A stretch of DNA of 64,000 bases. Origin: Bacillota bacterium. GTDB taxonomy: Bacteria; Bacillota; DSM-12270; Thermacetogeniales; Thermacetogeniaceae. The stretch spans positions 1 to 64,000 of the forward strand of contig JABLXW010000013.1 in assembly GCA_013177945.1 (NCBI GenBank), given 5' to 3'. The translations under genes were made by a program, and so were the position numbers. Positions 52,438 through 62,186 of the stretch are shown here, in pieces (positions within the stretch are counted from its first letter, which is position 1; each line of letters begins with the position of its first letter). The notes below the pieces were generated by a model that searched no databases, had not been told where the DNA came from, and saw only the letters and a list, made by a program, of their open reading frames with translations.

Positions 52438-52657
52438 CCTCGCGGCAATTGCGAAAATGTTGATGGTCTTCGGAGTTCTCCTTTTTTTGGGCGGAGGCTT
52501 CCTCCTCTTATTGGGCAAGATCGCGCCGCTGGGCAGGCTGCCCGGGGATCTTTTTGTGCAGCGGGGAAATTTTACCTTTTACTTCCCGCTTGTTACCTGT
52601 TTGCTCTTGAGCCTCCTTCTGACCTTGTTCCTCAATTTGTTCTTCTGGCGCCGCTGA
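52430..52657 (+). CDS. DUF2905 small membrane protein
   Basis: A 75-residue two-helix protein (MLMVFGVLLFLGGGFLLLLG, then the loop LGRLPGDLFVQRGNF, then YFPLVTCLLLSLLLTLFLN). The PLGRLPGD element and two-helix layout define DUF2905, often encoded beside ruvB or queA. Function unknown. It starts within queH and its last 150 bases are antisense to the coding 3' end of the rsgI-like gene. Confidence 0.88.
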   Translation: MDNLAAIAKMLMVFGVLLFLGGGFLLLLGKIAPLGRLPGDLFVQRGNFTFYFPLVTCLLLSLLLTLFLNLFFWRR

Positions 52658-53578
52658 AATCCCGGTCGGAGGCGCGACACGTTCCTGCGCGGCGCGCCCG
52701 TTTTCTTCTGAATCTTCTGAATGGGGCAGCAACGGAGTCTTTTCCTTTGAAGGTTTAACCTTCTCCTCCCCCGGCGGGAGTGAAGGGAATTGTTTCCCGG
52801 TATTTCCTGAGGGTTGGCGGCCCGGGGAGTCCGGCTGCCCGGAAGGAACAGCCTGGAGGAGATGGTTGAGAGCATCTTGATGTTTCCGGGTCAGGATTGA
52901 CCACTTTTCTTCCCTCAACTCCGGAAGAGAAATTGTTATCCCTTTTTTTTGAGCTTCCAGGTGCAGGAGGTACCTGCCCGGCGAAATTCTTTTTTGTTGG
53001 GCTTCCACCCGGACCCGGGGGGAAATTGCTTTGACCTGATAGGGCACGGAAACAGGCTGGGCCTCCAGCACCCGGCTGATGGTCTCCATCACTTGAGCCT
53101 GGAATCCGGGAGGGATTTCTTTTGCCCGGCCCGGGGTAAAAGTGCAGAGCACGGGTTCGGGCGACTCGGGTTTCAGCCCTTTTGCGAGGATGAGGGTCAG
53201 CCCCTGTTTGAGATCGCTGCCCCGGAGGGCCAGTTTGGCAATCAGAGCTTCCCCCTCGCGATTTAAAGAACGGGCTTTAATAATTTCACCCTTCTCGTTA
53301 AGAGCAAGCTCAAGGCTGGGCCCGAAATCCAGGGAGACATAAGCGGCAGCCTGAGGAAGAAAAGTCCAGAAAAGCTGCCAGGTGAGCAGAGCAACCAGGA
53401 GGGCCGCTGCAAGGCTTGCCAGGCGGAGGTGCCTGGCCGGCCCGGGTCTGCAGATCACCTCGGCGCCGGGACGGTTCTCCGGAAAAGCATAGGGCACCCG
53501 GATGAATTCCCCGTCCGGCGTCAGAATGATGCTGGAACGGGATTCTTTTTTCACCAGCATTCCTTTAATTTCTCCCAT
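52508..53578 (-). CDS. rsgI: RsgI-like anti-sigma factor
   Basis: A 356-residue membrane protein paired with sigI. The N-terminal 50 residues (GMLVKKESRSSIILTPDGEFIRVP) are the RsgI_N SigI-binding domain; one helix lies at 53-75 (LASLAAALLVALLTWQLFW); an extracytoplasmic domain follows with YVSLDFGPSLELALNEKGEII. Residues 240-356 are Gln/Glu/Pro-rich low complexity with no carbohydrate-binding module. The terminal 50 codons are antisense to the DUF2905 gene. ATG 53578 follows GAGGGAGGAG. Confidence 0.85.
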   Translation of the reverse strand: MGEIKGMLVKKESRSSIILTPDGEFIRVPYAFPENRPGAEVICRPGPARHLRLASLAAALLVALLTWQLFWTFLPQAAAYVSLDFGPSLELALNEKGEIIKARSLNREGEALIAKLALRGSDLKQGLTLILAKGLKPESPEPVLCTFTPGRAKEIPPGFQAQVMETISRVLEAQPVSVPYQVKAISPRVRVEAQQKRISPGRYLLHLEAQKKGITISLPELREEKWSILTRKHQDALNHLLQAVPSGQPDSPGRQPSGNTGKQFPSLPPGEEKVKPSKEKTPLLPHSEDSEENGRAAQERVAPPTGISAAPEEQIEEQGQKEAQEQTGNKREVKGKISPLHKKIPGQPAQRRDLAQ

Positions 53579-53592
53579 AATGAACTCCTCCC

Positions 53593-54309
53593 TCAGGATG
53601 TCGGGGCTTGCGAGGCTTTGAGATAAGAAGCAAGGTAAATGTACTCATCAGACTTACGGTAGATTAAAGCCAGTCCGATAATATATGGACGGTGTTTCTC
53701 CAGGGTTTTCCGGCTGATGTTGCCCAGGTTGCAGAGCGCCTGAACGGGAAGGCGCTTCTGGGCTTGGAGATACCGGAAGAGCTCCCCGTCCCCGGCCAGG
53801 GTTCTGGCAATTTTCTGGAGAAGCGCCCGGGAGTCGCGGTGTTTGGGCGAAGTTCGGACGAGGTCTTTGAGTTCCACCCCATATGTTTTCAGTTCCTCTT
53901 CGTACTGGAGCAGTTCTTCCTCCCGTTCCCTTGCTGCAACCTCCTCCGCGAACTTTTCCCATGCGTTCTCCTTTTCCCCTGGCAGAAGTTCGGCTTCAAA
54001 GTCAAGATTGGTTAAACTCGAAGCGCGCTCCCGAGCTTCGCGCCGGAAGAAATCAACCAGGCGGCTCCTGATGACGAGCCTGGCGTACGCCAGGAAGGGG
54101 ACCCCGTATTTAAGCTTAAAACTGTCAATCGCCTCGTTGAAGGCCAGGAGGGCGATTGAAAGCTCGTCATCTTCTCCCCAGTTCAGGTGTCTCTTGCAGA
54201 TTGAACTGGCGGTTTTATGAATAAAGGGTTGGTGGGCTTCGAGCAATTGATTGCGCATCCGGAGGTCTCCGTTTTTTGCCTGGAGGACCTGTTCGTCAAT
54301 CAGCCCCAT
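53593..54309 (-). CDS. sigI: RNA polymerase sigma factor SigI
   Basis: A 238-residue sigma-I type factor. An N-terminal sigma-70 region 2-like segment contains HQPFIHKTASSICKRHLNWGEDDELSIALLAFNEAID (read in parts) and YARLVIRSRLVDFFRRE; the C-terminal SigI-specific domain carries LPVQALCNLGNISRKTLEKHRPYI, an HTH. It is followed after 14 bases by its anti-sigma partner. SigI controls heat-shock or polysaccharide-related genes elsewhere; the regulon here is unknown. Confidence 0.9.
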   Translation of the reverse strand: MGLIDEQVLQAKNGDLRMRNQLLEAHQPFIHKTASSICKRHLNWGEDDELSIALLAFNEAIDSFKLKYGVPFLAYARLVIRSRLVDFFRREARERASSLTNLDFEAELLPGEKENAWEKFAEEVAAREREEELLQYEEELKTYGVELKDLVRTSPKHRDSRALLQKIARTLAGDGELFRYLQAQKRLPVQALCNLGNISRKTLEKHRPYIIGLALIYRKSDEYIYLASYLKASQAPTS

Positions 54310-57059: not shown

Positions 57060-58217
<1,158 letters not shown>

Positions 58218-58291
58218 GACAAATGCCGCGGCAGGAACGCCTGAATTCTTGTCCAATATATGGTAAAAAGCCTGCCAAGGAGTTGATCAGG

Positions 58292-58495
58292 GTGGAGATT
58301 GGGTTGAGACCTGGTTGGAAGAAGATCTTAAAAGCCTGGCAGTTCTGGTGCCTGGAGGAGATCCGGAAAAGACGGTTGAAGTCTGATTACTTGAAGATCG
58401 CGCGCTTTTTGAGCGGTGCTCAAGATTGCTGGAAAGATGGAGAAAACAGACTTCTTTTGAAGATTGTCAGGGATGCAGGGGAGGGGCGGCGGTGA
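58292..58495 (+). CDS. Small basic protein upstream of MazF-like toxin (candidate antitoxin)
   Basis: GTG 58292, nine bases after AAGGAG, opens a 67-codon frame whose stop overlaps the toxin start (GTGA). It is Trp/Lys/Arg-rich and matches no antitoxin family I recognise; Gly+Lys content is DNA-binding-like at best. In the toxin's own frame an unspliced stretch with strong coding rhythm is broken by TGA 58384-58386, so a different ancestral reading is possible. The antitoxin role is inferred from position only. Confidence 0.4.
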   Translation: MEIGLRPGWKKILKAWQFWCLEEIRKRRLKSDYLKIARFLSGAQDCWKDGENRLLLKIVRDAGEGRR

Positions 58496-58935
58496 TCGTT
58501 ACCAGGGACGGTTTCTACATCGAACGGGGCGACATTTTCCTGATAGAACTGGGAACCGACGGGAACGGGGAGAAAATCAGGCAGCCCGTTCTCGTAATTC
58601 AGAACGACATCGGCAACCGCTTCTGCAATTCGGTAATCGTTGTCCCCCTTTATCCCAACCTTCAACTGAAGCACCTTTTGCTGGGAGTGGTTTTAGAAGC
58701 AGGAGGGGGCGTCGGTCTGGCGACGGATCATGTGGCCCTGTTTACCCAGATAAGAACTGTAGACAAGGCATGCTTTCGGAGAGATAATTTTTTAGGACAC
58801 CCTGATGCTCAGGTGATGGCTCGGGTTGACGAAGCCATTAAGTTGAGCCTGGGCCTGAGCACGATTCAGCGTTTGCAAACCAGGCAGCAGCTTTTTCAGA
58901 AGTGGCGGATGCAAACGAGAAATAAAGTGTGCTGA
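58492..58935 (+). CDS. MazF/PemK-like toxin-fold protein
   Basis: A 147-residue protein with the MazF hallmarks ERGDIFLIEL, QPVLVIQNDIGNRFCNSVIVVPL and TQIRTVDKACF, ending in a helical tail. R30 aligns with the catalytic Arg of Bacillus MazF; the position of the catalytic Thr appears to be Tyr (VPLYPN). GTG 58492 has GGGGAGGGG five bases upstream and overlaps the stop of the upstream small frame. MazF proteins cleave mRNA at short sequences; activity here is uncertain given the substitution. Confidence 0.85.
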   Translation: MIVTRDGFYIERGDIFLIELGTDGNGEKIRQPVLVIQNDIGNRFCNSVIVVPLYPNLQLKHLLLGVVLEAGGGVGLATDHVALFTQIRTVDKACFRRDNFLGHPDAQVMARVDEAIKLSLGLSTIQRLQTRQQLFQKWRMQTRNKVC

Positions 58936-59698: not shown

Positions 59699-60952
59699 GT
59701 GAAAGCAAAAGGAACCGGGGAAAAGGCAGCCCCCATCAACTGGCTGGAAACGGGGAAACTTTTGTTCCTGGTGCTGCTCATCCTCTGTGTTGCTGTTTTT
59801 TCCGCGAGGCCCCTGGCAGCGCAGCTGCAGAGGCGTTTGGGGCTCGATCTCAAGGGAGGCGTTCATGTCGTTTACGAGGCGGTTTCCACCCCTGATGCTC
59901 CTGTGACTTCGGATTCGATCACCAGGCTCATCGGCATCATCAGGAACAGGGTCGATGCCCTGGGTGTTACCGAGCCCCTCATTCAAAAAGAAGGCGCGAG
60001 GCGGGTTGTGGTGGAATTGCCGGGAGTCAGGGATCCGGAGGAGGCAGTTCGCTTGATCGGGCGCACCGCCCATCTGGAATTTAAAACCGAGGACGGGAAA
60101 ACCGTTCTGACGGGAAAGGATCTGAAAGATGCCCGTGCCCAGTTGAACCCTAACACAAACGAACCCGAGGTTCTCCTGAAGTTTAACAAAGAAGGGGCAA
60201 GAATTTTCGGTCAGGTCACAACGGCAAATGTCAAAAAGAGGATCGCCATTTACCTGGATGATAGACTCTTGACTGCTCCTGTTGTGGATGAGCCGATTAC
60301 AACGGGCGATGCGGTGATCAGGGGAGGGTACCAGACCCTGGAGGAGGCCCAGCGGGAGGCGGTTTTATTGCGCTCCGGCGCTCTCCCCGTCAAGGTTAAA
60401 TTGATGGAAAAGCGGAGCATTGGGCCTCTTTTGGGAAAGGATTCTCTGGATCGGAGCCTGCGGGCCGGGATCATCGGGGTTGCGCTCATTTTTATCTTCA
60501 TGGTGCTTTATTACCGGCTCCCGGGTCTGGTCGCCGACCTTTCGCTGATCGTTTACGGCTTGATCGTAATCGGGGTTTTCCTTTTAATTAAAGCAACACT
60601 CACCCTGCCGGGAATTGCCGGTTTCATCCTCTCCGTCGGGATGGCGGTGGATGCCAACATCATTATCTACGAGCGCCTCAAAGAAGAGTTAAGAACGGGA
60701 AAGACTCTCCGTGCTGCGATTGACGCCGGCTTCCACCATGCCTTCCGCACCATTCTGGATGCCAATATTACGACTCTGATTGCGGCGGCAGTGCTGTACT
60801 ACTTTGGTAGCGGTCCCATCCGGGGTTTTGCCGTGACTTTAAGCATTGGTATTTTAACCAGCATGTTTACAGCGATCACATTCACCCGTTTTGTTTTGCA
60901 TTCGATCGCGCGGTCGCGGCTGGTGCTGAATCCTAAGGCTTACGGTGCCTGA
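59699..60952 (+). CDS. secD: Protein translocase subunit SecD
   Basis: A 417-residue membrane protein. The signature RLGLDLKGGVHVVYEA lies after helix 1; the periplasmic P1 domain spans 60-260, and five C-terminal helices include GMAVDANIIIYERLKEEL near residue 320. It uses proton motive force to complete protein export together with SecF. GTG 59699 follows GGGGGAAGGTGAGG. YajC, often between tgt and secD, is missing. Confidence 0.95.
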   Translation: MKAKGTGEKAAPINWLETGKLLFLVLLILCVAVFSARPLAAQLQRRLGLDLKGGVHVVYEAVSTPDAPVTSDSITRLIGIIRNRVDALGVTEPLIQKEGARRVVVELPGVRDPEEAVRLIGRTAHLEFKTEDGKTVLTGKDLKDARAQLNPNTNEPEVLLKFNKEGARIFGQVTTANVKKRIAIYLDDRLLTAPVVDEPITTGDAVIRGGYQTLEEAQREAVLLRSGALPVKVKLMEKRSIGPLLGKDSLDRSLRAGIIGVALIFIFMVLYYRLPGLVADLSLIVYGLIVIGVFLLIKATLTLPGIAGFILSVGMAVDANIIIYERLKEELRTGKTLRAAIDAGFHHAFRTILDANITTLIAAAVLYYFGSGPIRGFAVTLSIGILTSMFTAITFTRFVLHSIARSRLVLNPKAYGA

Positions 60953-60972: not shown

Positions 60973-61842
60973 ATGAATTTAATCAAACTGCGCAAGTTCT
61001 GGTATCTCCTCTCGCTCCTGGTAATTATTCCAGGGTTGCTCTCTTTTTTTGCAAAGTGGCATGTTCTGGGGAAGCCGCTGAATTACGGGATTGATTTTAC
61101 CGGGGGGAGCCTTATTGAGATCAGGTTCCAGCGCCCCGTGAATTCAGGGGAGGTCCGGGCCGTGCTCTCTGAACTGGGTCTGGCCGAGGGTGGCAGGGTC
61201 CAAACCACTGCCGGAAATGCAGTTCTCATCCGCACCCGTGACCTTACCCAGGAGGAGAGCGACAGGCTGCTCAAAGGCCTGGAACAGAAGGTGGGAGCCC
61301 TGGAGCTGTTGAGGAATGAAAAGGTTGGGCCCGCGATCGGCAAAGAACTCAGAAATAAAGCCATTTTATCTCTGGTAATTGCCTTTGCTTTGATGATCAT
61401 TTACATCACAATCCGGTTCGAGTTTCGTTTTGCCCTGGCAGCAATTGCCGCCCTGCTGCACGATATTCTGGTGACGGTAGGTCTGGTTTCCCTGCTCTGG
61501 CTGGAGGTGGACGGCGCCTTTATTGCCGCCCTTTTGACCATAGTGGGTTATTCCATTAACGATACTATTGTCATCTTCGACCGGATCCGGGAAAACCTGG
61601 CCCAGCGGAAAAAAGAACCCCTTGATGAAGTGATTCACAACAGCATCATCCAAACCCTGGCCCGCTCCATCAACACCGTCCTGACCGTAATCTTCTGTTT
61701 GGTGGTGCTGATCATCTTCGGGGGAGTGACGATCAGGTCCTTTATGGTGACAATGCTGATCGGGGTGATCAGCGGCTGCTACTCATCGATCTTTAACGCC
61801 AGCCCCTTGTGGTACGATCTCCGGCGCCTCACCGGATCTTGA
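60973..61842 (+). CDS. secF: Protein translocase subunit SecF
   Basis: A 289-residue partner of SecD. NYGIDFTGGSLIEIRF near residue 38, and GYSINDTIVIFDRIRENL near 195 are diagnostic. It starts 20 bases after secD with GGGGAGG as SD. Confidence 0.95.
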   Translation: MNLIKLRKFWYLLSLLVIIPGLLSFFAKWHVLGKPLNYGIDFTGGSLIEIRFQRPVNSGEVRAVLSELGLAEGGRVQTTAGNAVLIRTRDLTQEESDRLLKGLEQKVGALELLRNEKVGPAIGKELRNKAILSLVIAFALMIIYITIRFEFRFALAAIAALLHDILVTVGLVSLLWLEVDGAFIAALLTIVGYSINDTIVIFDRIRENLAQRKKEPLDEVIHNSIIQTLARSINTVLTVIFCLVVLIIFGGVTIRSFMVTMLIGVISGCYSSIFNASPLWYDLRRLTGS

Positions 61843-61869: not shown

Positions 61870-62075
61870 CGTGGCAGGGAAAAGTGGAGAGATGAACAGG
61901 GCGACAGGTGCCCGCAAGACGGGAGAATAGGGAATCAGGTGAAAATCCTGAGCGGTCCCGCCACTGTAAGCAGGAACAAACCCAGGGTAGCCACCGGGCC
62001 GGCCCACCGGCCTGGGAAGGGTGGGGGAGGATGAACTGCGAGCCAGGAGACCTGCCTGTCAGCCGGATTTCCCTT
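61870..62075 (+). ncRNA. Cobalamin (B12) riboswitch upstream of cobT
   Basis: The conserved core GGGAATCAGGTGAAAATCC followed by GAGCGGTCCCGCCACTGTAA, and the B12-box-like GCCAGGAGACCTGCC at 62042-62056, are present in the right order. It should shut off cobT expression when adenosylcobalamin is high, through the terminator at 62108-62142. Confidence 0.95.
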
Positions 62076-62142: not shown

Positions 62143-62186
62143 GATGCTTTTTTATGATTAATTTTTTTAACATGGGAGGGTTTGCT

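Follow-up and report, generated by a model that had tools for sequence, protein, structure and literature searches.

The tgt-secDF locus

The window, a stretch of 64,000 nucleotides, carries a cassette of two genes, X and a MazF-like gene, between tgt and secDF. The features of the locus are as follows.

57090..58217, + strand: tgt, encoding tRNA-guanine transglycosylase (TIGR00430, 517.9 bits), the upstream neighbor of the cassette
58216..58266, + strand: conserved non-coding element GAGACA-N11-AGGA...TGTCCAATATATGGTAA, recurrent before X and putatively promoter-like
58292..58495, + strand: small protein X, 67 residues, GTG start behind AAGGAG, homologous to X elsewhere
58492..58935, + strand: SecDF-linked MazF-like protein, 147 residues (PF02452, 69.7 bits), with an extended C-terminal helix
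58981..59676, + strand: HD-domain protein (PF01966, E 3.4e-7), the regular downstream neighbor
59699..60952, + strand: secD (TIGR01129, 425.8 bits)
60973..61842, + strand: secF (TIGR00966, 319.4 bits)

The gene order is thus tgt, X, MazF-like gene, HD gene, secD, and secF, all on the + strand. The stop codon of X overlaps the start codon of the MazF-like gene in the tetranucleotide GTGA (58492-58495), the small gene coming first, as in type II toxin-antitoxin loci. The HD gene, which separates the MazF-like gene from secD in the window and in most relatives, is found at loci with and without the cassette. A preliminary description of this DNA had placed a small frame and a MazF-like gene in this slot. 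The pair joined by GTGA was correctly recognized, except that the small frame had been over-extended to ATG 58214. The frame opened by this ATG runs over the conserved non-coding element, and the matching stretch of the sister genome is broken by stop codons. The start of X is most likely GTG 58292 behind AAGGAG, which yields a 67-residue protein that fits its relatives (52 to 90 residues).

Other features were noted in passing. A cobalamin riboswitch (61889-62073; RF00174, 118.8 bits) is located upstream of a gene at 62154, which we take, from its sequence, to be CobT-like. On the - strand, positions 52508-54309 contain two genes presumably related to those of the anti-sigma factor RsgI and the sigma factor SigI, as recognized from their sequences. 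A second, partial SecD-like match (G001, C34:10187-10765; 64% identity over 193 residues, one internal TGA) lies beside the main SecD.

Distribution of the cassette and absence of yajC

Of the 20 genomes of the family, 11 carry the MazF-like gene at high similarity, with 63 to 85% identity for the ten copies other than that of the window. Each of the ten family loci that were read completely has the order tgt-X-MazF-HD-secD. Six genomes (G007, G008, G012, G013, G017, and G019) harbor neither yajC nor the cassette, tgt being directly followed by the HD gene, and in three others (G002, G009, and G014) the contig ends before the slot. Relatives were sought in 398 genomes of the phylum, in which 31 SecDF-linked proteins, including those of the family, were set apart at E values below 1e-35; canonical MazFs begin at about 1e-28 in this sample. 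Outside the family, 17 of the 20 loci have the order tgt-yajC-X-MazF-(HD)-secD, with yajC directly upstream of X. Of the remaining three, two begin at contig ends and one has no yajC match. Downstream of the pair, the HD gene, secD, or both are present in the other families, and the contigs named PH28_bin88 and BP4.bin80 show the same gene order. The gene order recurs in about ten other families, far more often than expected by chance.

The preliminary description had reported that no yajC was seen and had considered that one might lie elsewhere nearby. Its absence was borne out on a larger scale, since PF02699 had no match in the whole genome that contains the window (2.7 Mb, 99.96% complete) or anywhere in the family sample of 20 genomes, which includes a single-contig assembly. 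PF02699 was present in 38 of 41 other genomes of the phylum. Thus, a whole bacterial family, as sampled by 20 genomes, is devoid of YajC. The description had also regarded the cassette as standing in the place of yajC and had proposed to look for both in relatives. The cassette does recur, and it coexists with yajC, which it directly follows, at 17 of the 20 loci outside the family; it is therefore a neighbor of yajC rather than its substitute. Loss of yajC as an event separate from the pair, which would not perform the work of YajC, is the best explanation of these observations.

A conserved element upstream of X

The long exact form of the element preceding X occurs once per genome in eight genomes of the family, always between tgt and X, and each of the 11 family loci with a cassette has at least a looser form. 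In the other families, a GACA...AGGA core precedes X in 16 of 17 loci (shuffled sequences: mean 1.4, maximum 4), and the spacing of the window element, at 58216-58266 between tgt and X, is equal to that of its counterparts. A terminator-like hairpin separates yajC from X in 15 of the 17 loci; that of PH28_bin88 was also detected by scan. No match was obtained in an Rfam search of the element, and no common structure when it was folded as RNA. By eye, its AGGA half and spaced AAT are reminiscent of sigma-H promoters. We infer that the element is promoter-like and belongs to a unit comprising X, the MazF-like gene, the HD gene, and secDF. Two further, looser matches to GACA-N11-AGGA occur elsewhere in the genome.

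The pair had initially been described as lying inside a core export operon. It does lie between tgt and secDF. Its position is at the head of the secDF unit, after yajC in the relatives that have yajC, and usually behind a terminator and the promoter-like element. In this arrangement, the pair does not interrupt a tgt-yajC-secDF operon.

Fold and catalytic residues of the MazF-like protein

The window protein belongs to PF02452 (PemK/MazF; E 3e-19, 69.7 bits for a cut-off of 23.1). In its AlphaFold2 model (mean pLDDT of 80), the MazF fold is retained, the nearest structures found by Foldseek being the MazFs of Bacillus cereus (E 2.4e-9) and Bacillus subtilis (E 3.6e-9).

Catalytic positions were tallied in a single alignment, in Bacillus MazF numbering, of 27 canonical MazFs and the 31 SecDF-linked proteins. 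All 27 canonical proteins have P15, G18, E20, R25, P26, N36, Q79, and T or S at position 48. Among the SecDF-linked proteins, E20 is present in 2/31, G18 in 8/31, R25 in 20/31, and T or S48 in 13/31 (T in 9, S in 4), whereas N36 is present in 31/31 and Q79 in 29/31. In the family, T/S48 is absent from 11/11 members and R25 from 9/11. In the window protein, the equivalents of R25 and T48 are a glutamine (Q31) and a tyrosine (Y54), respectively, and the Gly18/Glu20 loop, which active MazFs need for their substrate, is missing, as it is nearly clade-wide. Changes at R25 or T48 cripple B. cereus MazF (PMC7354611), and the MazF of D. audaxviator requires R25, G18, and E20 (PMC8634880). The window protein has therefore probably lost RNA cleavage and would be non-toxic, or nearly so, although an arginine one position before Q31 may compensate. 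Outside the family, both R25 and T/S48 are present in 11 of the 20 members of the clade, which may still cleave RNA; the protein of PH28_bin88 is one that retains Arg25 and Thr48.

Properties of the small protein X

Window X had no match in Pfam, NCBIfam, or PADLOC, and no domain match to the N-terminal DNA-binding domain of RHH or AbrB type. A search with a profile of X against solved structures returned nothing significant. X is predicted as a single helix, with a low pTM. Its N-terminus is hydrophobic and aromatic, contains no membrane segment, and has a weak amphipathic character (combined p of 0.02 on related sequences). The X proteins of the family are homologous to those of the other families (hhalign probability 95.7, E 1e-8), with a core, RLKxDYLxI...W...ENxLL, often followed by a G-x-GG end.

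The register of this core matches the tail of EndoAI. When the X profile was run against 4510 sequences, mostly decoys, EndoAI antitoxins ranked 1 to 3 (E 7e-4, 0.016, and 0.15). Reciprocal and forward HMM searches and hhalign comparisons of X with EndoAI were not significant, and column-shuffled alignments scored higher in hhalign. The resemblance of the X core to the MazF-binding tail of EndoAI/MazE, with the DNA-binding domain absent, is thus suggestive only. The preliminary description had stated that the small frame fits no antitoxin family; this holds for Pfam and NCBIfam and is qualified by the weak resemblance to the EndoAI/MazE tail.

In G053 (L202, 1078-1905), X and MazF are fused in one frame of 275 residues, and the stretch joining them contains no ATG, GTG, or TTG. 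From this natural fusion, the GTGA overlap, and the tail similarity, we infer that X binds the MazF-like protein. At another locus, L224 (G073), a canonical MazF gene lies behind a 68-residue EndoAI-like frame in which the tail is present and the RHH domain is apparently lacking; an antitoxin may have been shortened independently here.

Inheritance and selection

The 31 SecDF-linked proteins formed one clade relative to 28 canonical MazFs (support of 100/100), one canonical MazF row being on a long branch and of unsure placement. Distances between MazF-like proteins tracked those of tgt (rho of 0.54; 0 of 2000 permutations), also outside the family (rho of 0.44; 0 of 2000 permutations). Comparison of the genome containing the window with its sister, in which synonymous sites are partly saturated, yielded a dN/dS of 0.059 for the MazF-like gene, 0.061 for secD, 0.051 for the HD gene, 0.086 for tgt, and 0.38 for X. 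The values ranged from 0.38 to 0.6 for X and from 0.06 to 0.23 for the MazF-like gene. As judged from these sequence comparisons, the pair is old and vertically inherited. Since the dN/dS of the MazF-like gene is about equal to that of secD, the gene is kept and not decaying.

Probable domestication of a MazEF-derived pair

We propose, with a probability of roughly 0.6, that the cassette is a domesticated pair of MazEF origin heading the secDF unit. Long ago, before the family arose, this transcription unit would have captured a chromosomal EndoAI/EndoA (MazEF) module at its head, and the two would since have been inherited together under selection. X would be a short helical remnant of the antitoxin, devoid of the DNA-binding domain, and would bind a dimer of the MazF-like protein. 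The latter would, in the family, have lost the residues required for RNA cleavage, so that the pair would be a cell component and no longer an addictive toxin-antitoxin. Loss of yajC would be separate from the history of the pair.

The function of such a pair can be envisaged more tentatively. The MazF-like protein might bind RNA with very weak cleavage or none and thereby regulate its own secDF message; regulation of secDF by the pair in this manner is conceivable, if doubtful. It is rather unlikely that a catalytically dead MazF and an antitoxin remnant form an RNA-binding switch setting SecDF expression, or that the secDF message is held near the membrane by the hydrophobic N-terminus of X. 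In that event, a toxin-antitoxin pair would have become a regulator devoted to the Sec export machinery. Domestication itself, if correct, would be a clear example of a housekeeping transcription unit that has captured a type II toxin-antitoxin module. The clade spans apparently intact to catalytically broken members, making the steps of domestication testable one by one.

Alternative explanations

The preliminary description had treated the two genes as a toxin-antitoxin pair. The locus does contain a MazF-like gene overlapped by a small partner, and it could encode a working type II module in which the MazF-like protein is an RNase of altered specificity and X its small antitoxin. Overlapping genes with the antitoxin first, the MazF fold, and the retention of N36 (31/31) and Q79 (29/31) all fit this explanation, as does the presence of both R25 and T/S48 in 11 of the 31 members of the clade. 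Antitoxins often diverge faster than their toxins, and the higher dN/dS of X relative to MazF conforms to this pattern. Arguing against it are glutamine and tyrosine at the two catalytic positions of the window protein (Arg25 and Thr48), the nearly clade-wide loss of the Gly18/Glu20 loop, a slot that is cleanly empty in six genomes of the family, and vertical inheritance at a fixed place, unlike most mobile toxin-antitoxin modules. A working toxin-antitoxin is thus a rather unlikely explanation, and its attribution to the window pair is doubtful. The erosion of catalytic residues and the absence of the pair from several family genomes could be read as the signs of an evolutionary relic drifting without function. 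This is very unlikely in view of a MazF-like dN/dS of 0.06, equal to that of secD, and of frames that are intact in 11 genomes of the family and in 20 outside it.

Replacement of YajC by X, or by X and the MazF-like protein together, as an accessory of SecDF in the family would account for the lack of yajC in 20/20 genomes and for the presence of the cassette in 11/20, where the loci read show it preceding the HD gene and secD. The abundance of F, W, L, I, V, and M in the N-terminal part of X is in keeping with such a role. The cassette and YajC share a genomic slot between tgt and secDF. The cassette has no sequence or membrane-segment similarity to YajC, X itself having no PF02699 match and no transmembrane-like stretch, and the two coexist in 17 loci of other families. 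Six family genomes, moreover, have neither yajC nor the cassette. Replacement is accordingly highly improbable, and domestication of a MazEF-derived pair remains our preferred reading.

Relationship to known systems

The nearest known system is the B. subtilis MazEF pair formed by the MazF EndoA/NdoA (YdcE) and EndoAI (PDB 4ME7 and 4MDX). The window MazF-like protein resembles EndoA in its fold and is about 40% identical to it across the MazF core, where VLVIQNDIGNRF is shared; in both systems a small gene lies just upstream, and the core of X bears a weak, in-register resemblance to the EndoAI tail. In contrast to EndoA, the window protein has replacements at Arg25/Thr48 and Gly18/Glu20 and a longer C-terminal helix. 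X differs from EndoAI by the absence of an RHH domain, and the cassette by its linkage to secDF.

The idea of a recruitment of MazF relatives for other functions has a precedent in a discussion of solo or exapted homologues of toxins and antitoxins (Makarova et al., 2009; PMC2701414). The search in the latter study set aside gene pairs located within longer conserved operons, by which a SecDF-linked pair would be filtered out. A text search of the literature found no paper on a linkage of mazF to secDF or yajC, as judged by title.

The cassette coexists with canonical modules. Nine genomes with the cassette were sampled from other families, and each of them has, in addition, a canonical EndoAI/EndoA pair with its catalytic residues kept. 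The genome containing the window has a second MazEF pair outside the window (C13:122761-123347; L001, 1232-1818), which consists of a small AbrB/MazE-like gene followed by a PF02452 gene whose product is 25% identical to the window protein.
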